Positions 19,031 to 37,420 of a stretch of 57,061 nucleotides of DNA are shown piece after piece. This stretch comes from an uncultured Pelagibacteraceae bacterium. Its GTDB lineage: Bacteria > Pseudomonadota > Alphaproteobacteria > Pelagibacterales > Pelagibacteraceae. The stretch is taken from positions 1-57,061 of the forward strand of contig CACJFJ010000008.1 of assembly GCA_902592675.1 (NCBI GenBank). Direction: 5' to 3'. The position numbers were made by a program, and so were the translations under genes. The notes below the pieces were generated by a model that saw nothing but the letters and a program-made list of their open reading frames with translations, searched no databases and was not told the origin of the DNA. Numbering within the stretch: position 1 is the stretch's first letter; every line of letters begins with the position of its first letter.

Positions 19031-20122
19031 ATGGACACAATTTTATTAATAATTTTGATTTTAATGTTTGGAGCAATCCTGGCTATTTTATATCTAAATA
19101 TAAAGTTCAAGAAAGCGAACAGAGCTGATGAGACTAATGAAATAGCAAATTTGAACGCGGAAATTGTTAGATTAAAAGATAGCTTAAACTCTACAATCAA
19201 TACTTCTCTAAATTCGATGTCTACCTCATTTAACTCTTTATCAACTGGGGTAACAAAAGATATGACTGAGGCCTTAACCAAAGTAGATGAAAAGGTTGGA
19301 AACTTCAATGAGCAAGTAAAATTGTTAAATCAAAGCCAAGAGGGGATTACTAAAATTTTAGCAGGGGTTAAAAAGTATGGAACTTTGGCTGAATATTCTC
19401 TAGATGCTTTGATAAAGGATTTGTTACCAGCATCTCAATTTATGACTAATGTTAAAATGAAAGAGGATACCAGCGAGAATGTAGAATTCGCAATCAAGCT
19501 TCAAGGAGATGTTTTGGTTCCAGTAGATTCTCATTTTCCAGTAGAAAAATTTAAAGCAATTACTGATGCATATGATTCAGATGATAAAAAAGCTGTTGCT
19601 GATGCTAGAACAAAATTAGCAAGTGCATTTAAGGCCAAGGCTAAAAGTGTTATGGAAAAATATATTGTTCCACCTAAAACAACAGATTTTGCAATCGTAT
19701 ACGCACCAACAGAGAGTCTTTATAAAGAATTAACAGAGTATCAAGATCCAAGCACTAAAGAGTTATTAACCCAAGAATTAATGAAGAAATATAAGGTAGT
19801 TATTTCTGGCCCTAATACTCTTTCAGCTTATTTACAATCCTTACATATGGGTTTTCAATCACTGAAAGTTCAAAAGGGAGCTACAGAAATATATAATCAC
19901 CTTAAAACTATCACTACAAGATTTGGTAAACATTTTGATAATATAATTACGCTTAGAAAAAAATTAGAAGAGGCCATGAGTGTAGTAGATAAGTTTGGTA
20001 CTGATGCAAGATCAATTAGTAGAACTTTAGAAAACATAAAAGATCCCGAGCAAGTTGAAAAAGCTGTACTGACAGAAAACGTTGAGAAATTTGTTGAAAG
20101 AAATAAACATCTTAAAAAATAA
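19031..20122 (+). CDS. rmuC: RmuC-family DNA recombination protein
   Basis: A nuclease-like protein thought to limit inverted-repeat recombination; its biochemistry is poorly defined. It has an N-terminal membrane segment (ILLIILILMFGAILAILYL, about 4-22), a coiled-coil region to about 115 (repeated 'SLNS', 'TSFNSLST'), and the RmuC domain with LIKDLLPASQF, VEFAIKLQGDVLVPVDSHFP and PPKTTDFAIVYAPTESLY. The 363-residue length is typical. It is followed on the same strand by two further DNA exonucleases, suggesting a DNA-processing cluster. Confidence 0.9.
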   Translation: MDTILLIILILMFGAILAILYLNIKFKKANRADETNEIANLNAEIVRLKDSLNSTINTSLNSMSTSFNSLSTGVTKDMTEALTKVDEKVGNFNEQVKLLNQSQEGITKILAGVKKYGTLAEYSLDALIKDLLPASQFMTNVKMKEDTSENVEFAIKLQGDVLVPVDSHFPVEKFKAITDAYDSDDKKAVADARTKLASAFKAKAKSVMEKYIVPPKTTDFAIVYAPTESLYKELTEYQDPSTKELLTQELMKKYKVVISGPNTLSAYLQSLHMGFQSLKVQKGATEIYNHLKTITTRFGKHFDNIITLRKKLEEAMSVVDKFGTDARSISRTLENIKDPEQVEKAVLTENVEKFVERNKHLKK

Positions 20123-20159
20123 TTTCTTTTTTCAGATAATACCGACTATAAGAAATCAC

Positions 20160-20846
20160 ATGCGCTGGAATAAGAAATACAATTATCCTACATCATCAAG
20201 AGCAACAGAAGATGGAATAAGAAGATACTTGTTAGGAGAAACAAAATTACCAAGTGTTACTTCAATACTTGATGCAACAAAGTCTGAGGAAGATAAAGCT
20301 GCTTTAGCAAATTGGCGAGAAAGAACTGGTTTTAAAGAAGCTGAAGCAATTACAAAAGCCGCAAGTAGCAGAGGTTCCCGGATGCATGGCTATTTAGAAT
20401 CTTTTCTTTTGGGCAGAGAAAATTTAAGTTTCTTCGAGGACAATGAACAATACAAAAAGATGGCAAAAGAAATCATTGATAAGGGATTAACAAATAGATT
20501 AGACGAAATATATGGTGTGGAATGCACAATGTATTATCCAGAAAAGTATGCAGGTACAGCAGATTGTGTAGGAGTATTTGAAGGAAAAGAAACAATAATT
20601 GATTTCAAACAATCCAATAAACCGAAAAAAGCTGAGTACATAGACTCATGGTTTTTACAAACTGCAGCTTATTCTTTAGCACATAATGTTGTTTACAATT
20701 CAAATATCACAGCGTGTGTTATTCTTGTTTGTACAGTAGACAATTTATTTCAAGAATTTAAAATCCAAGGCTCTGAATTAATTACATATCAAAATTTATT
20801 TTTAGGTAGATTAAAAAAATTTAATGAAATGAATAACTTGGGTTAA
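20160..20846 (+). CDS. PD-(D/E)XK exonuclease, phage/MGME1-like
   Basis: A 228-residue nuclease of the PD-(D/E)XK superfamily. I start at the ATG at 20160; an upstream start at 20082 would lie inside rmuC. The N-terminal LPSVTSILDAT...LANWRERTGFKEAEAI with RGSRMHGYLE resembles exonucleases of marine myoviruses and mitochondrial MGME1. The active-site residues are in AGTADCVGVF (Asp) and TIIDFKQS (Asp-x-Lys), followed by the helix SWFLQTAAY (family Q-x-x-x-Y type motif). It has no helicase part. It lies between rmuC and sbcB, 5 bases before the latter. Confidence 0.82.
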   Translation: MRWNKKYNYPTSSRATEDGIRRYLLGETKLPSVTSILDATKSEEDKAALANWRERTGFKEAEAITKAASSRGSRMHGYLESFLLGRENLSFFEDNEQYKKMAKEIIDKGLTNRLDEIYGVECTMYYPEKYAGTADCVGVFEGKETIIDFKQSNKPKKAEYIDSWFLQTAAYSLAHNVVYNSNITACVILVCTVDNLFQEFKIQGSELITYQNLFLGRLKKFNEMNNLG

Positions 20847-34565: not shown

Positions 34566-35534
34566 ATGAAAGAAAAAAATTGTCTAATTTTTGGCGGAAG
34601 CGGTCAAATTGGGAGGCATCTAATAAGAAAGTTGACTAAAAATAACTATAGGGTGACTGTAATTACAAGAAATATCCATCAGAAAAGTTATATAATAAAG
34701 ACCCAAGCTAATGCAGGATATATAAGTATTGTAGAAGCAAGTATATTTGATGAGCAAAAAATAAGAAGACTTTTTGAAAACGCGGATATTTGTATTAATC
34801 TTGTTGGTATTTTATATGAAAAAAGAAAAGGTAATACTTTCAAAAATATACATTCATTGTTTCCTTCGGTATTATCTAAACTTTGCAAAGAATATAAGTT
34901 AAAACATTTTATACATATTTCAGCTTTGGGAATTGATGAAGCAACTGACTCAAATTATGCTAATTCTAAAAGAGAAGGTGAAAAAAATATTTTAAAAAAC
35001 TTTCCGTCAGCTACGATTTTAAGACCATCGTTAGTATACTCTGTTGATGATAATTTTACTACAAACTTTATGACTTTATTGAATAGATTACCAATTTTTC
35101 CACTTTATTATAATGGTAAAACGAAGTTTATGCCTATTCACTGTTCAGATTTAGTTGACACAATTTTTCACATAATAGACAAAAAAATCAATTCTCAAAT
35201 TATTGAGTGTGTAGGACCAGAAACAATCACTTTTAAAGAAATAATTTTAAAACTATTACGATTAATAGAAAAAAAAAGGATCTTAATACCTTTACCATTT
35301 TTCATTGCAAATTATTCAGCAAAATTTTTTGGCTTATTTCCTAAGCCAATTTTGACTCAAGACCAGTTAAGACTTTTAAAATATGATAATGTAGCTTCAA
35401 AAAAATATAAAACTAATAATGATATCAATGTGCCTAGTAAAAAATTCTTTGACGAAGAAGTTAAGAAATATTGCTATATGTGGAAAGATGGAGGGCAGTA
35501 TTCAACAGAAAAATATAAATCAGATAAAAATTAG
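34566..35534 (+). CDS. NAD(P)-binding NDUFA9-like protein
   Basis: A 322-residue atypical short-chain dehydrogenase/reductase. A Rossmann motif starts the protein (CLIFGGSGQIGRHLIRKL, GxxGxxG), followed by NADICINLVGILYEKRKGNT, HFIHISALGIDEATDSNYANSKREGE (Tyr-x-x-x-Lys replaced by N-Y-A-N-S-K) and LRPSLVYSVDDNF. This pattern matches the complex I NDUFA9 subunit family in alphaproteobacteria, which binds NADPH and may assist complex I stability. It is monocistronic, converging on gcrA with 7 bases between stops. Confidence 0.85.
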   Translation: MKEKNCLIFGGSGQIGRHLIRKLTKNNYRVTVITRNIHQKSYIIKTQANAGYISIVEASIFDEQKIRRLFENADICINLVGILYEKRKGNTFKNIHSLFPSVLSKLCKEYKLKHFIHISALGIDEATDSNYANSKREGEKNILKNFPSATILRPSLVYSVDDNFTTNFMTLLNRLPIFPLYYNGKTKFMPIHCSDLVDTIFHIIDKKINSQIIECVGPETITFKEIILKLLRLIEKKRILIPLPFFIANYSAKFFGLFPKPILTQDQLRLLKYDNVASKKYKTNNDINVPSKKFFDEEVKKYCYMWKDGGQYSTEKYKSDKN

Positions 35535-35541
35535 CTTTAAT

Positions 35542-36083
35542 TTAAACTGTTTGAGTTTTCTTCTCTATATATTCTGAAACTTCCTCTTTTTCATTATTAT
35601 CTTCTTTTTTACCTTTTGGCTGATAAGCGTAAAGGAGGTGAAGTTTGCAATATGAAAAATCTTTGAGTGATGACCTTCCACAAAAATAGAATGTTTTTTC
35701 ATTAGGATGACCGATAGGCCATTTACAAGAATTTTCATCTAGCTCTTCAAGCTGCTTTGGATTCTCTGGCTCAAAATCTTTTTCTATTATTAGAGACTTA
35801 AATTTACTTCTTCTCCCTCTTTTAATTTTGTTATTTTTATGCTCTATCGAATTTTCAAAACTAGCATTTGAAGTTGCAGTTCTGGTCTTGATTTTGGCTG
35901 AAAGGTTTAACCTATGAGCTTTTCCTTTTAAGACCTGTGCCCCTCTAATAAAATTAGAGGGGCCAGGCGCCCTATAACGGCATTCCTGCTTATACCGCCA
36001 ATAATTTCCGCTATTTGACTTGCAGTGTTACCTTTTCCCCAAAGTTCTTTTAATTTTGCTACTTTTTCTTCAGTCCAACTCAT
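35542..36083 (-). pseudogene. gcrA: GcrA cell-cycle regulator, interrupted by a 47-nt hairpin insert
   Basis: GcrA binds sigma-70 RNA polymerase at methylated GANTC sites and controls division genes in alphaproteobacteria. Translation from ATG at 36083 gives MSWTEEKVAKLKELWGKGNT and ISRNAVIG, the standard N-terminus, then 13 foreign codons and TAA at 35930-35928, a 51-residue product. From 35922 another frame resumes precisely with KAHRLNLS, runs 126 residues and ends with the C-terminal domain (CKWPIGHP, FYFCGRSS, YCKLHLLYAYQP). Deleting 35926-35972 (47 nt) restores a 164-residue GcrA. The undamaged downstream part implies a very recent insertion, some recoding or RNA-level removal, or an artefact. 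It is divergent from argD. Confidence 0.88.
35926..35972 (-). repeat. 47-nt palindromic insert inside gcrA
   Basis: Relative to the GcrA family this segment is extra. On the plus strand GCCCCTCTAAT (35939-35949) and ATTAGAGGGGC (35953-35963) form a perfect 11-bp stem with a 3-base loop; CCTG (35934-35937) and CAGG (35964-35967) extend it by 4 bp around one bulged T. About half of the insert is G+C, far above the surroundings. GG occurs at both junctions (codons GGG and GGA on the coding strand), like a 2-base target duplication. The arms do not copy nearby gcrA sequence. No second copy was noticed in this window. Confidence 0.75.
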
Positions 36084-36097
36084 TAAATCTATATAAT

Positions 36098-36120
36098 GTG
36101 TTAATAATTTTTTTTAACAC
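36098..36120. promoter_or_regulatory. Inverted repeat between gcrA and argD
   Basis: GTGTTAA (36098-36104) and TTAACAC (36114-36120) form a 7-base inverted repeat with a 9-base AT spacer, 15 bases upstream of the gcrA start. It could be an operator for gcrA or a short hairpin. The spacing (TTAA-N9-TTAA) does not match the CtrA box (N7). The remaining bases to argD (36121-36256) are AT-rich with no other clear element. Confidence 0.3.
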
Positions 36121-36256
36121 AATATAATGATATTAAAAATAAATAAACAAGGATATTTTAGTAGTTATGCACAATTTTCATCAAAATAAAGTTGAGTTTT
36201 ATTATTCAATCCTAACTTGTATTTAATTTTTTAATTTATAAAAAGAAAAAATTAAA

Positions 36257-37420
36257 ATGAGTTTTTTAGCAAAAAATTATAACCGAAAAAAAATATCTTT
36301 TGTCAGAGGTAAAGGAAGCTATCTTTACACAGCAAATGGAACAAAATATTTAGATTTTGTTCAAGGAATTGCAGTAAATTCTTTAGGACATGCTCATCCA
36401 GAATTAGTTAAAACAATCAACAAACAATCTAAAAAACTTTGGCATGTATCAAATGCATTTTTAATTCCCGAGGGTGAGAAGTTAGCAAAAAAACTTGCAA
36501 AAAAAACATTTGCAGAATATGTAATATTTCAAAACAGTGGCACTGAAGCAACTGAGGCAGCAATTAAAGTTGCCAGAAGATATTTTTACTCGATTGGTAA
36601 ACCAAATAAAAATCGAATTCTTTGTATAAAAAATTCTTTTCATGGTAGAACTTTGGCCGCAATATTTGCTAGTGGTTCAAAAAAGATGACCGAAGGATTT
36701 GGACCGAAAGTTGGAGGTTTTGACCATTTTAAATTTGGAGACCATAAATCTCTTAAAAATAAAATTACAAAAGATACAGCTGCAATCATGATTGAAACTA
36801 TTATGGGGGAGGGCGGCATTAAAGAAGTCCCAGATTGGTGCATTAAAGGGCTCAGAAAAATATGCGATAAGAAAAAAATATTGCTTATATTGGATGAGGT
36901 GCAGTGTGGAATAGGAAGATCTGGCGATTTTTTTGCATTTGATAAATCAAAAGTTAAGCCAGATATAGTACCTATTGCAAAGGGAATAGGGGGCGGCTTC
37001 CCATTAGGTGCCGTATTAATGAATAAAAAGGTTGCCTCAGGAATGACAGCCGGGACACATGGATCAACTTTTGGCGGCAATCCTTTAGCAATGCAAATCG
37101 GTAATAAAGTAATGGATATAGTTGCTAATAAAAATTTTTTAAGAAATGTAAAAAAAAATTCTGAATATTTTCATAATGAACTAAAAAAAATAAAGAAAAA
37201 TTTCCCTAAAGTTATAAAAGAAATTAGAGGTAGAGGTTTTTTAATAGGAATTCAACTTTACCAAGATCAGACAAATTTTATTAAAGCTTTGATGAAAAAC
37301 AAATTACTTACAATTAAAGCAGCTGAAAATGTGATTAGAATTTTACCGCCCTTGAATGTAAAAAAAGAGGATTTAGACAAAGCAATCAAAATTATTAATA
37401 AGGTTTGTGAAAAATTTTAA
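36257..37420 (+). CDS. argD: Acetylornithine aminotransferase
   Basis: PLP aminotransferase of arginine synthesis, often also acting in the lysine pathway at the DapC step, relevant because no dapC is in this window. In 387 residues it shows FQNSGTEATEAAIKVARRY, FHGRTLAAIFASGS, LDEVQCGIGRSGDFFA, the PLP lysine in PIAKGIGGGFPLGA (about 240) and HGSTFGGNPLAM. It is followed by argF after 4 bases. Confidence 0.94.
   Translation: MSFLAKNYNRKKISFVRGKGSYLYTANGTKYLDFVQGIAVNSLGHAHPELVKTINKQSKKLWHVSNAFLIPEGEKLAKKLAKKTFAEYVIFQNSGTEATEAAIKVARRYFYSIGKPNKNRILCIKNSFHGRTLAAIFASGSKKMTEGFGPKVGGFDHFKFGDHKSLKNKITKDTAAIMIETIMGEGGIKEVPDWCIKGLRKICDKKKILLILDEVQCGIGRSGDFFAFDKSKVKPDIVPIAKGIGGGFPLGAVLMNKKVASGMTAGTHGSTFGGNPLAMQIGNKVMDIVANKNFLRNVKKNSEYFHNELKKIKKNFPKVIKEIRGRGFLIGIQLYQDQTNFIKALMKNKLLTIKAAENVIRILPPLNVKKEDLDKAIKIINKVCEKF

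Follow-up and report, generated by a model that had tools for sequence, protein, structure and literature searches.

Hairpin inserts that split gcrA and an exonuclease gene in SAR11 bacteria: probable mobile elements bypassed by the ribosome

The gene gcrA, which encodes a cell-cycle master regulator, is split by a 47-nucleotide (nt) hairpin insert in an uncultured Pelagibacteraceae bacterium of the SAR11 group. The stretch of DNA in which it lies, referred to here as the window, is 57,061 nt long and is the entire contig CACJFJ010000008.1 of assembly GCA_902592675.1, a 1.0-Mb genome of 28 contigs that is about 80% complete. A preliminary description of the window, made from its sequence, presented the split as decay of the regulator, a view that our results do not support. 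Hairpin inserts occupy the same site in ten other SAR11 genomes and the genes that carry them show purifying selection; gcrA of the window is therefore probably still expressed as one protein, and its insert most likely represents neither gene decay nor an artefact. We consider it probable that a small mobile element, a hairpin over which translating ribosomes hop, has inserted here.

The insert lies between two parts of gcrA, both of them open (Table 1); without its stop, the reading frame of the 3' part runs from 35922 to 35545. When joined, the two halves score 130.8 bits (E 7.6e-38) against Pfam GcrA, which is in the range of unsplit relatives. The preliminary description had recognised the two intact parts with 47 nt between them, the shift of the frame by two and the lack of further damage downstream, all of which hold; it had placed the same 47 nt at 35926-35972, a boundary that is slid by 3 nt relative to the one used here (35969-35923). 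Its account of an 11-base-pair (bp) perfect stem with a 3-nt loop and a CCTG/CAGG extension was also confirmed, with one bulged A in the extension. Folding of the insert region as DNA was 4.0 standard deviations below dinucleotide shuffles, none of 200 equalling it, and as RNA 4.8 standard deviations below, with one shuffle of 200 equal. The stem occurs once in the window even when 3 mismatches are allowed (expected 0.00). The contrast in GC content with the local DNA is real as well, with 0.54 at 35950-35999 against 0.10-0.40 in the remaining 50-base steps of 35500-36299 and 0.29 in the whole window. A search of 35400-36700 found no repeat overlapping the insert, in agreement with the earlier claim that the arms are not copies of flanking gcrA, though the minimum length of this search (12) exceeds the 11-nt arms. 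An intrinsic terminator was considered and rejected because the sense strand has no T-run after the stem but A-CAGG-TCTTAAAA. The sole Rfam match at E<=1 in 35500-36300 was to a human long noncoding RNA family (E 0.26); it lies outside the insert and scores far under the gathering score of that family.

Table 1. Features of the split gcrA locus and the phage-type exonuclease gene in the window.
Feature	Position	Strand	Basis or remark
gcrA, whole	36083-35542	-	ATG 36083-36081, stop 35544-35542
gcrA 5' part, codons 1-38 (MSWTEE...NAVIG)	35970..36083	-	Pfam GcrA 50.2 bits, positions 1-38
gcrA 3' part, codon 39 to stop (KAHRLNLS..., 126 aa)	35542..35922	-	Pfam GcrA 65.7 bits, positions 39-152
47-nt insert (putative bypassed region including landing codon)	35923..35969	-	between the two open gcrA parts
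Hairpin: CCTG + GCCCCTCTAAT, loop TTT, ATTAGAGGGGC + A bulge + CAGG	35934..35967	-	folding
In-frame TAA stop within insert	35928..35930	-	sequence
CGC, first codon of insert, rarest sense codon of window ORFs (open reading frames)	35967..35969	-	13/14 inserts; 5/16,844 codons
Putative take-off codon GGG (Gly38)	35970..35972	-	GGG in 12/12 Gly-type inserts vs 1/30 unsplit gcrA
Putative landing codon GGA	35923..35925	-	GGA in 12/12 Gly-type inserts; coding restarts at AAA (Lys39)
Candidate 5' stem-loop upstream of take-off codon	35976..35999	-	arms 35999-35992 + 35983-35976
Phage-type exonuclease, open, without insert	20082..20846	+	site reads LQTAAY, not LQLGAY

The insert recurs in other SAR11 genomes. 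In a genus sample of 201 genomes, 176 had GcrA among the matches listed, and at least three of these are split at this site: that of the window (G000), G059 and G098. Sixteen rows, mostly low-scoring, were re-inspected, about 12 low-scoring rows of the 176 being left uninspected; three of the re-inspected genes (G184, G087, G196) end at contig edges and the remaining ones are open. We then scanned 84,980 species genomes with a pattern that allowed 30-60 extra bases at the site and required K[A/V]HRL after it, with no requirement for GGG, GGA or ATC. At normal spacing this pattern recovered 34 of 43 unsplit loci, one of these without the 5' part. Of its 27 matches, ten are SAR11 gcrA genes split here, including those of G098 and G059, and the other 17, from outside SAR11, were discarded as they do not encode GcrA. 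The comparison across SAR11 relatives that the preliminary description proposed has yielded ten more genomes with hairpin inserts at the site; absence from all close relatives, which together with read depth it regarded as telling against the insert, is borne out in part, as most relatives are without the insert, yet the carriers are separately assembled genomes.

The 11 gcrA inserts (window plus ten) fall into three types. Type I is found in the window and L061 (CCTGGCCCCTCTAA.../CAGG) and type II in L054, L055, L064, L065, L068, L074 and L076 (GCGC-ATT..-GCCCCTCTAA...), in all cases after codon 38; type III, in L062 and L071, has a distinct stem of 16-17 bp and follows Ile37, not Gly38. We refer to types I and II, including the exonuclease inserts described below, as Gly-type (n=12) and to type III as Ile-type (n=2). 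KAHRLNLS follows the insert in 11/11 gcrA genes, an agreement that is independent of the scan pattern only for the window and for the residues past K[A/V]HRL. Because loop lengths vary, a stem pattern with a fixed loop and 3 mismatches matched the window alone among 397 genomes.

A second gene carries the same kind of element. When 399 genomes from the genus were scanned for the Gly-type stem, six carriers emerged, with the stem in gcrA in G000, G098 and G580 (the same as L055) and in another gene in G613, G158 and G637; a covariance model built from all 12 Gly-type elements led to the same six among these 399 genomes. This other gene matches the phage exonuclease family phrog_298, its 5' part spanning positions 41-204 of 293, and is interrupted by a 43-nt type I element after the Gly of YIQDYFLQLG, with coding restarting at AYTLAHN (QLG/AYTL). 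An uninterrupted LQLGAY is present in 28 of the 30 best-scoring exonuclease loci; of the other two, one is the split gene of G158 and one (L205) is cut by a contig end. The gcrA genes of the three exonuclease carriers are open. Mean column identity is 88% among the type I elements of gcrA and the exonuclease, and 71% when types I and II are taken together. A second suspected exonuclease split, in G036, proved to be a single-base frameshift with no insert; this frameshift (L283 / G036:C12:3975-4474) lies near a T-run and may be a sequencing error or a real lesion. The exonuclease copy of the window itself, which is less similar, has LQTAAY at this site. Exonucleases of this type are common in the genus, with a phrog_298 match in 166 of 201 genomes, and they neighbour RmuC-like or HisG-like genes (window 20082-20846; L112, L115, L111). 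Among 65 viral relatives of the exonuclease, 64 continue for at least 35 residues beyond the matched part and one ends with its contig.

The lengths of the inserts and the state of the flanking halves can be read directly from the sequences. The gcrA inserts are 47, 42, 48, 45, 48, 44, 44, 45, 49, 45 and 43 nt long and the three exonuclease inserts 43, 43 and 43 nt, so that lengths of 42-49 nt cover all three frames; six of the 14 keep the frame and eight shift it. An in-frame stop is present within 13 of the 14, the insert of L115 having none. Since the lengths fall in all frames and 13/14 inserts hold an in-frame stop, read-through is unable to join the halves. Both gene halves are nevertheless open in 14/14, with no second lesion. 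The ratio of nonsynonymous to synonymous substitution rates (dN/dS) in the gcrA 3' part is 0.031 between L062 and L071, which share the type III insert (25 synonymous, 4 nonsynonymous differences), and 0.040 between L064 and L068 (37.5 synonymous, 9.5 nonsynonymous), these being the two closest pairs of gcrA carriers. Other gcrA pairs reach 0.64 (L054-L061), many of the high values comparing different C-terminal alleles. In the exonuclease, pN/pS is 0.19-0.28 in both halves. As the 3' part is under selection while the insert is shared, the halves must be joined somewhere between DNA and protein. The C-terminal regions of gcrA (L054, L076, L074 versus other carriers) form distinct alleles behind a steadier N-terminal region, a pattern suggestive of recombination of the 3' half between SAR11 lineages.

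Gly-type inserts are preceded by GGG and end with the triplet GGA in all 12 cases, and Ile-type inserts are preceded by ATC and end with ATC in both. Among 30 parsable unsplit gcrA genes, codon 38 is GGT in 15, GGA in 10, GGC in 4 and GGG in 1, and codon 37 is ATC once. GGG and GGA are synonymous, and one tRNA-Gly, with anticodon UCC, can read both; UCC and GCC were the only glycine tRNAs seen in G000 and in the complete relative G012 (17 of 23 tRNA loci scanned in G000 and 24 of 32 in G012, the others being on the same loci, with two matches unfetched). The codon after the putative take-off site is CGC in 13 of the 14 inserts and TGC in L061, and CGC is the rarest sense codon in 50 mechanically chosen ORFs of the window. 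When the nine outer pairs are compared across the 12 Gly-type stems, two substitutions are seen (L074 and L112), both in the same pair; they give U.G pairs in the mRNA strand but leave the complementary strand mismatched. The outer stem takes in the last base of GGG in most type II folds, and the main hairpin of the window begins 2 nt past GGG. Upstream of the insert, a candidate 5' stem-loop with a predicted stability of -8.0 to -12.7 kcal/mol is present in 8/8 measured type I and II gcrA genes (L076 left out), as compared to a mean of -2.4 and a minimum of -7.9 kcal/mol in 30 unsplit gcrA genes; the values for L061 and the window are -8.1 and -8.0 kcal/mol, the stem-loop of the window having 8 pairs, 3 of them G.U.

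We infer from these features that the halves are probably joined on the ribosome, by the putative steps that follow. A ribosome arriving at Gly38 GGG would meet, as its next codon, the very rare CGC at the base of a very stable hairpin, and would stall there. The peptidyl-tRNA-Gly, whose anticodon UCC pairs with GGG through a U.G wobble, could then release, the ribosome would slide past the hairpin, and the same tRNA would re-pair with GGA beyond it, this time with a full match. Coding would restart at Lys39 to give a normal GcrA of 164 aa. In Gly-type gcrA carriers the stem-loop upstream may form again in the wake of the ribosome and help to drive it forward, as has been proposed for T4 gene 60. 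Such elements would enter a gene just behind a codon whose tRNA is able to pair again with the triplet at the element's own end, and would spread among SAR11 species, having reached at least two genes.

A number of observations weigh against such bypassing. CGC should be readable by a tRNA-Arg ACG that is encoded in the complete relative G012. The stem-loop of the window (-8.0 kcal/mol) is barely beyond that of the best unsplit gene (-7.9 kcal/mol), a strong one is missing in the two type III gcrA genes (-1.9 kcal/mol), and those of the split exonucleases are weak (-1.5 to -2.8 kcal/mol), the weakest of these being equalled or exceeded in stability by 14 of 28 unsplit exonucleases. None of the 14 inserts has a stop directly after the take-off codon, the stops coming later. 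The nascent-peptide motif KKYK was sought in 11/11 GcrA 5' parts and not found, other nascent-peptide signals not having been searched, and it is absent from the last 100 codons before the insert in 3/3 exonucleases. The carriers are related, so their codon counts are not independent events, and the flanking GG...GG or ATC...ATC repeats might be target-site duplications. Finally, the Gly-type stem is found in 0/57 genomes that are at least 90% complete versus 6/399 overall, where about one would be expected, and carrier completeness, where given, is 52-85%. With regard to the arginine tRNAs, UCG was seen in both G000 and G012 (L097, L225, L227), and ACG was seen in G012 but in none of the loci that were read in the incomplete G000.

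The main rival to bypassing is removal of the insert from the mRNA before translation, as a tiny hairpin intron whose excision and ligation are either enzymatic or autocatalytic. Excision would account equally well for the free length, the in-frame stops, the open halves and the short flanking repeats. However, it does not require GGG and GGA or the rare CGC at the junction, and no known RNA family was found in the insert with Rfam over the range given above; group I and II introns are far longer than these inserts, and small bulge-helix-bulge introns are archaeal. We regard it as unlikely. The stops held by nearly all inserts would also suit a gene that makes two polypeptides, in the window a 51-aa protein with only the helix-turn-helix and a C-terminal protein produced by re-initiation. 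This is distinctly less probable, as no common start codon was seen heading the 3' part, KAHRLNLS follows the insert throughout (partly built into the scan pattern, as noted), and the exonuclease is cut inside its family.

The patchy distribution, with carriers a small minority, would fit an inactivating insertion, possibly reversible, in genes that are being lost. Purifying selection on both sides between species with the same insert type, the lack of a second lesion in any of the 14 genes and the presence of different hairpin types at neighbouring codon boundaries make us consider this very unlikely. As for an assembly or amplification artefact of single-cell genomes, ten named carriers have isolate names beginning with AG- or AH-, which we take to denote single-cell plates; hairpin chimeras can arise when DNA is amplified, and the absence of the stem from the most complete genomes points the same way. 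The same site is nonetheless occupied by different hairpins in 14 separately assembled genomes, a second gene is involved, and divergence within the insert preserves both pairing and landing codon, leaving an artefact with hardly any probability.

A genome search for the stem, as suggested in the preliminary description, located the Gly-type stem at a single place per genome in 9/11 gcrA carriers and nowhere in the two Ile-type carriers; because of this single place per genome, a multicopy repeat was rejected. Mapped onto an argD tree with 42 rows, of which 11 are split, the insert label needs 7 changes; well supported branches force at least 4 of these. A count this low came up in 9 of 500 shuffles, indicating that the label is somewhat clustered yet patchy. 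This patchiness speaks against simple descent, though argD itself may recombine. Identity among six type II carriers, L076 excluded, is 0.84 in codons 19-36, just 5' of the site, versus 0.51 in unsplit genes; in the 14 codons on the 3' side it is 0.59 versus 0.55. For the exonuclease the values are 0.90 versus 0.65 in the 21 codons upstream and 0.74 versus 0.56 in the 20 codons downstream, the latter mostly due to one pair. The excess may come from a recent transfer, from selection acting on a 5' signal or from both; a two-sided co-conversion tract was dismissed because the excess in gcrA lies on the 5' side.

Phage sources were also searched. A scan of the viral_contigs collection for split gcrA and four hairpin patterns gave no true match: two chance matches to the split-gcrA pattern do not encode GcrA, and the sole match to a hairpin pattern falls within a long ORF of a GC-rich contig. 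Phage records held no match to the gcrA region. Of 24 weak matches of the covariance model that were read, 18 have a T-run on either strand and are terminator-like, and such SAR11 stems, for example CCCCTCTAATTTTTTAGAGGGG followed by a T-run (L248 1501-1522; L249-L271), nearly repeat the insert stem. It is possible, judging by this resemblance, that the hairpin element was derived from a terminator stem.

More broadly, the evidence tips slightly in favour of mobile bypass elements that form a family in SAR11, namely hairpins of 42-49 nt that are skipped and can spread through core genes at little cost, the skipping in gcrA acting as a tunable translational gate. Should this hold, we know of no earlier bypass elements that are shared between bacterial core genes, and the inserts would be a case of bypassing with a possible regulatory role in a cell-cycle master regulator. 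Fourteen natural elements with varied hairpins and spacers, in two host genes of abundant ocean bacteria, would reveal the essential features of bypassing and make its evolution and spread testable, and some apparent pseudogenes may be working genes. Literature on GcrA and SAR11, on translational bypassing (Pelagibacter, bacterial genomes, mitochondria) and on gene 60 contained no such case by title or abstract opening, with subscription literature thinly covered.

Among known inserts, Rickettsia palindromic elements are small palindromic sequences inside coding genes that remain in frame and are translated, unlike the SAR11 inserts, which break the frame or bring a stop. According to the excerpts of a 2016 review that we draw on here, efficient bypassing is known from T4 gene 60 and Magnusiomyces-type mitochondria of yeasts, counterparts have long been presumed, and a regulatory use would widen interest in the process (PMC5009743). 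Possible bypassing on bacterial ribosomes, as proposed here, is described in the same excerpts for Streptomyces phage Hau3 and Prevotella loescheii; these are single reported instances, the one in P. loescheii (29 nt) had no follow-up, and recurrence between species or genes is not described there (PMC5009743).

T4 gene 60 also has a non-coding, frame-breaking gap of about 50 nt, and its bypassing is, in the part of the source cited, processive up to 56 nt (PMC11194080); the SAR11 gaps are 42-49 nt, in all three frames and below 56 nt, the gcrA scan having been confined to 30-60 extra bases. Common to both, as far as the cited excerpts describe T4, are a stable structure at the take-off site and perhaps a 5' stem-loop, for which there is a candidate here in Gly-type gcrA carriers (PMC5009743, PMC11194080). 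In these same accounts T4 differs in having UAG right after take-off, where SAR11 has the rare CGC, in having a KKYK nascent-peptide signal, which was not found ahead of the SAR11 inserts, and in being a single phage gene as opposed to two chromosomal genes across many species. In mitochondria of Magnusiomyces capitatus, inserts at 81 positions are reported in the excerpted review, with an unused codon in the A site (PMC5009743); CGC is the rarest codon here, yet it is used. The yeast system, so far as described there, involves mitochondrial ribosomes, relaxed decoding and many inserts per genome, whereas SAR11 is a bacterium with a single Gly-type stem per genome where counted, and has inserts in two genes in 14 genomes, whose function we deduce from selection. 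By the same account the yeast system has frame-breaking block inserts in several needed genes that are corrected in translation, with take-off and landing codons that are not always identical, and the SAR11 inserts probably resemble it in these respects (PMC5009743).
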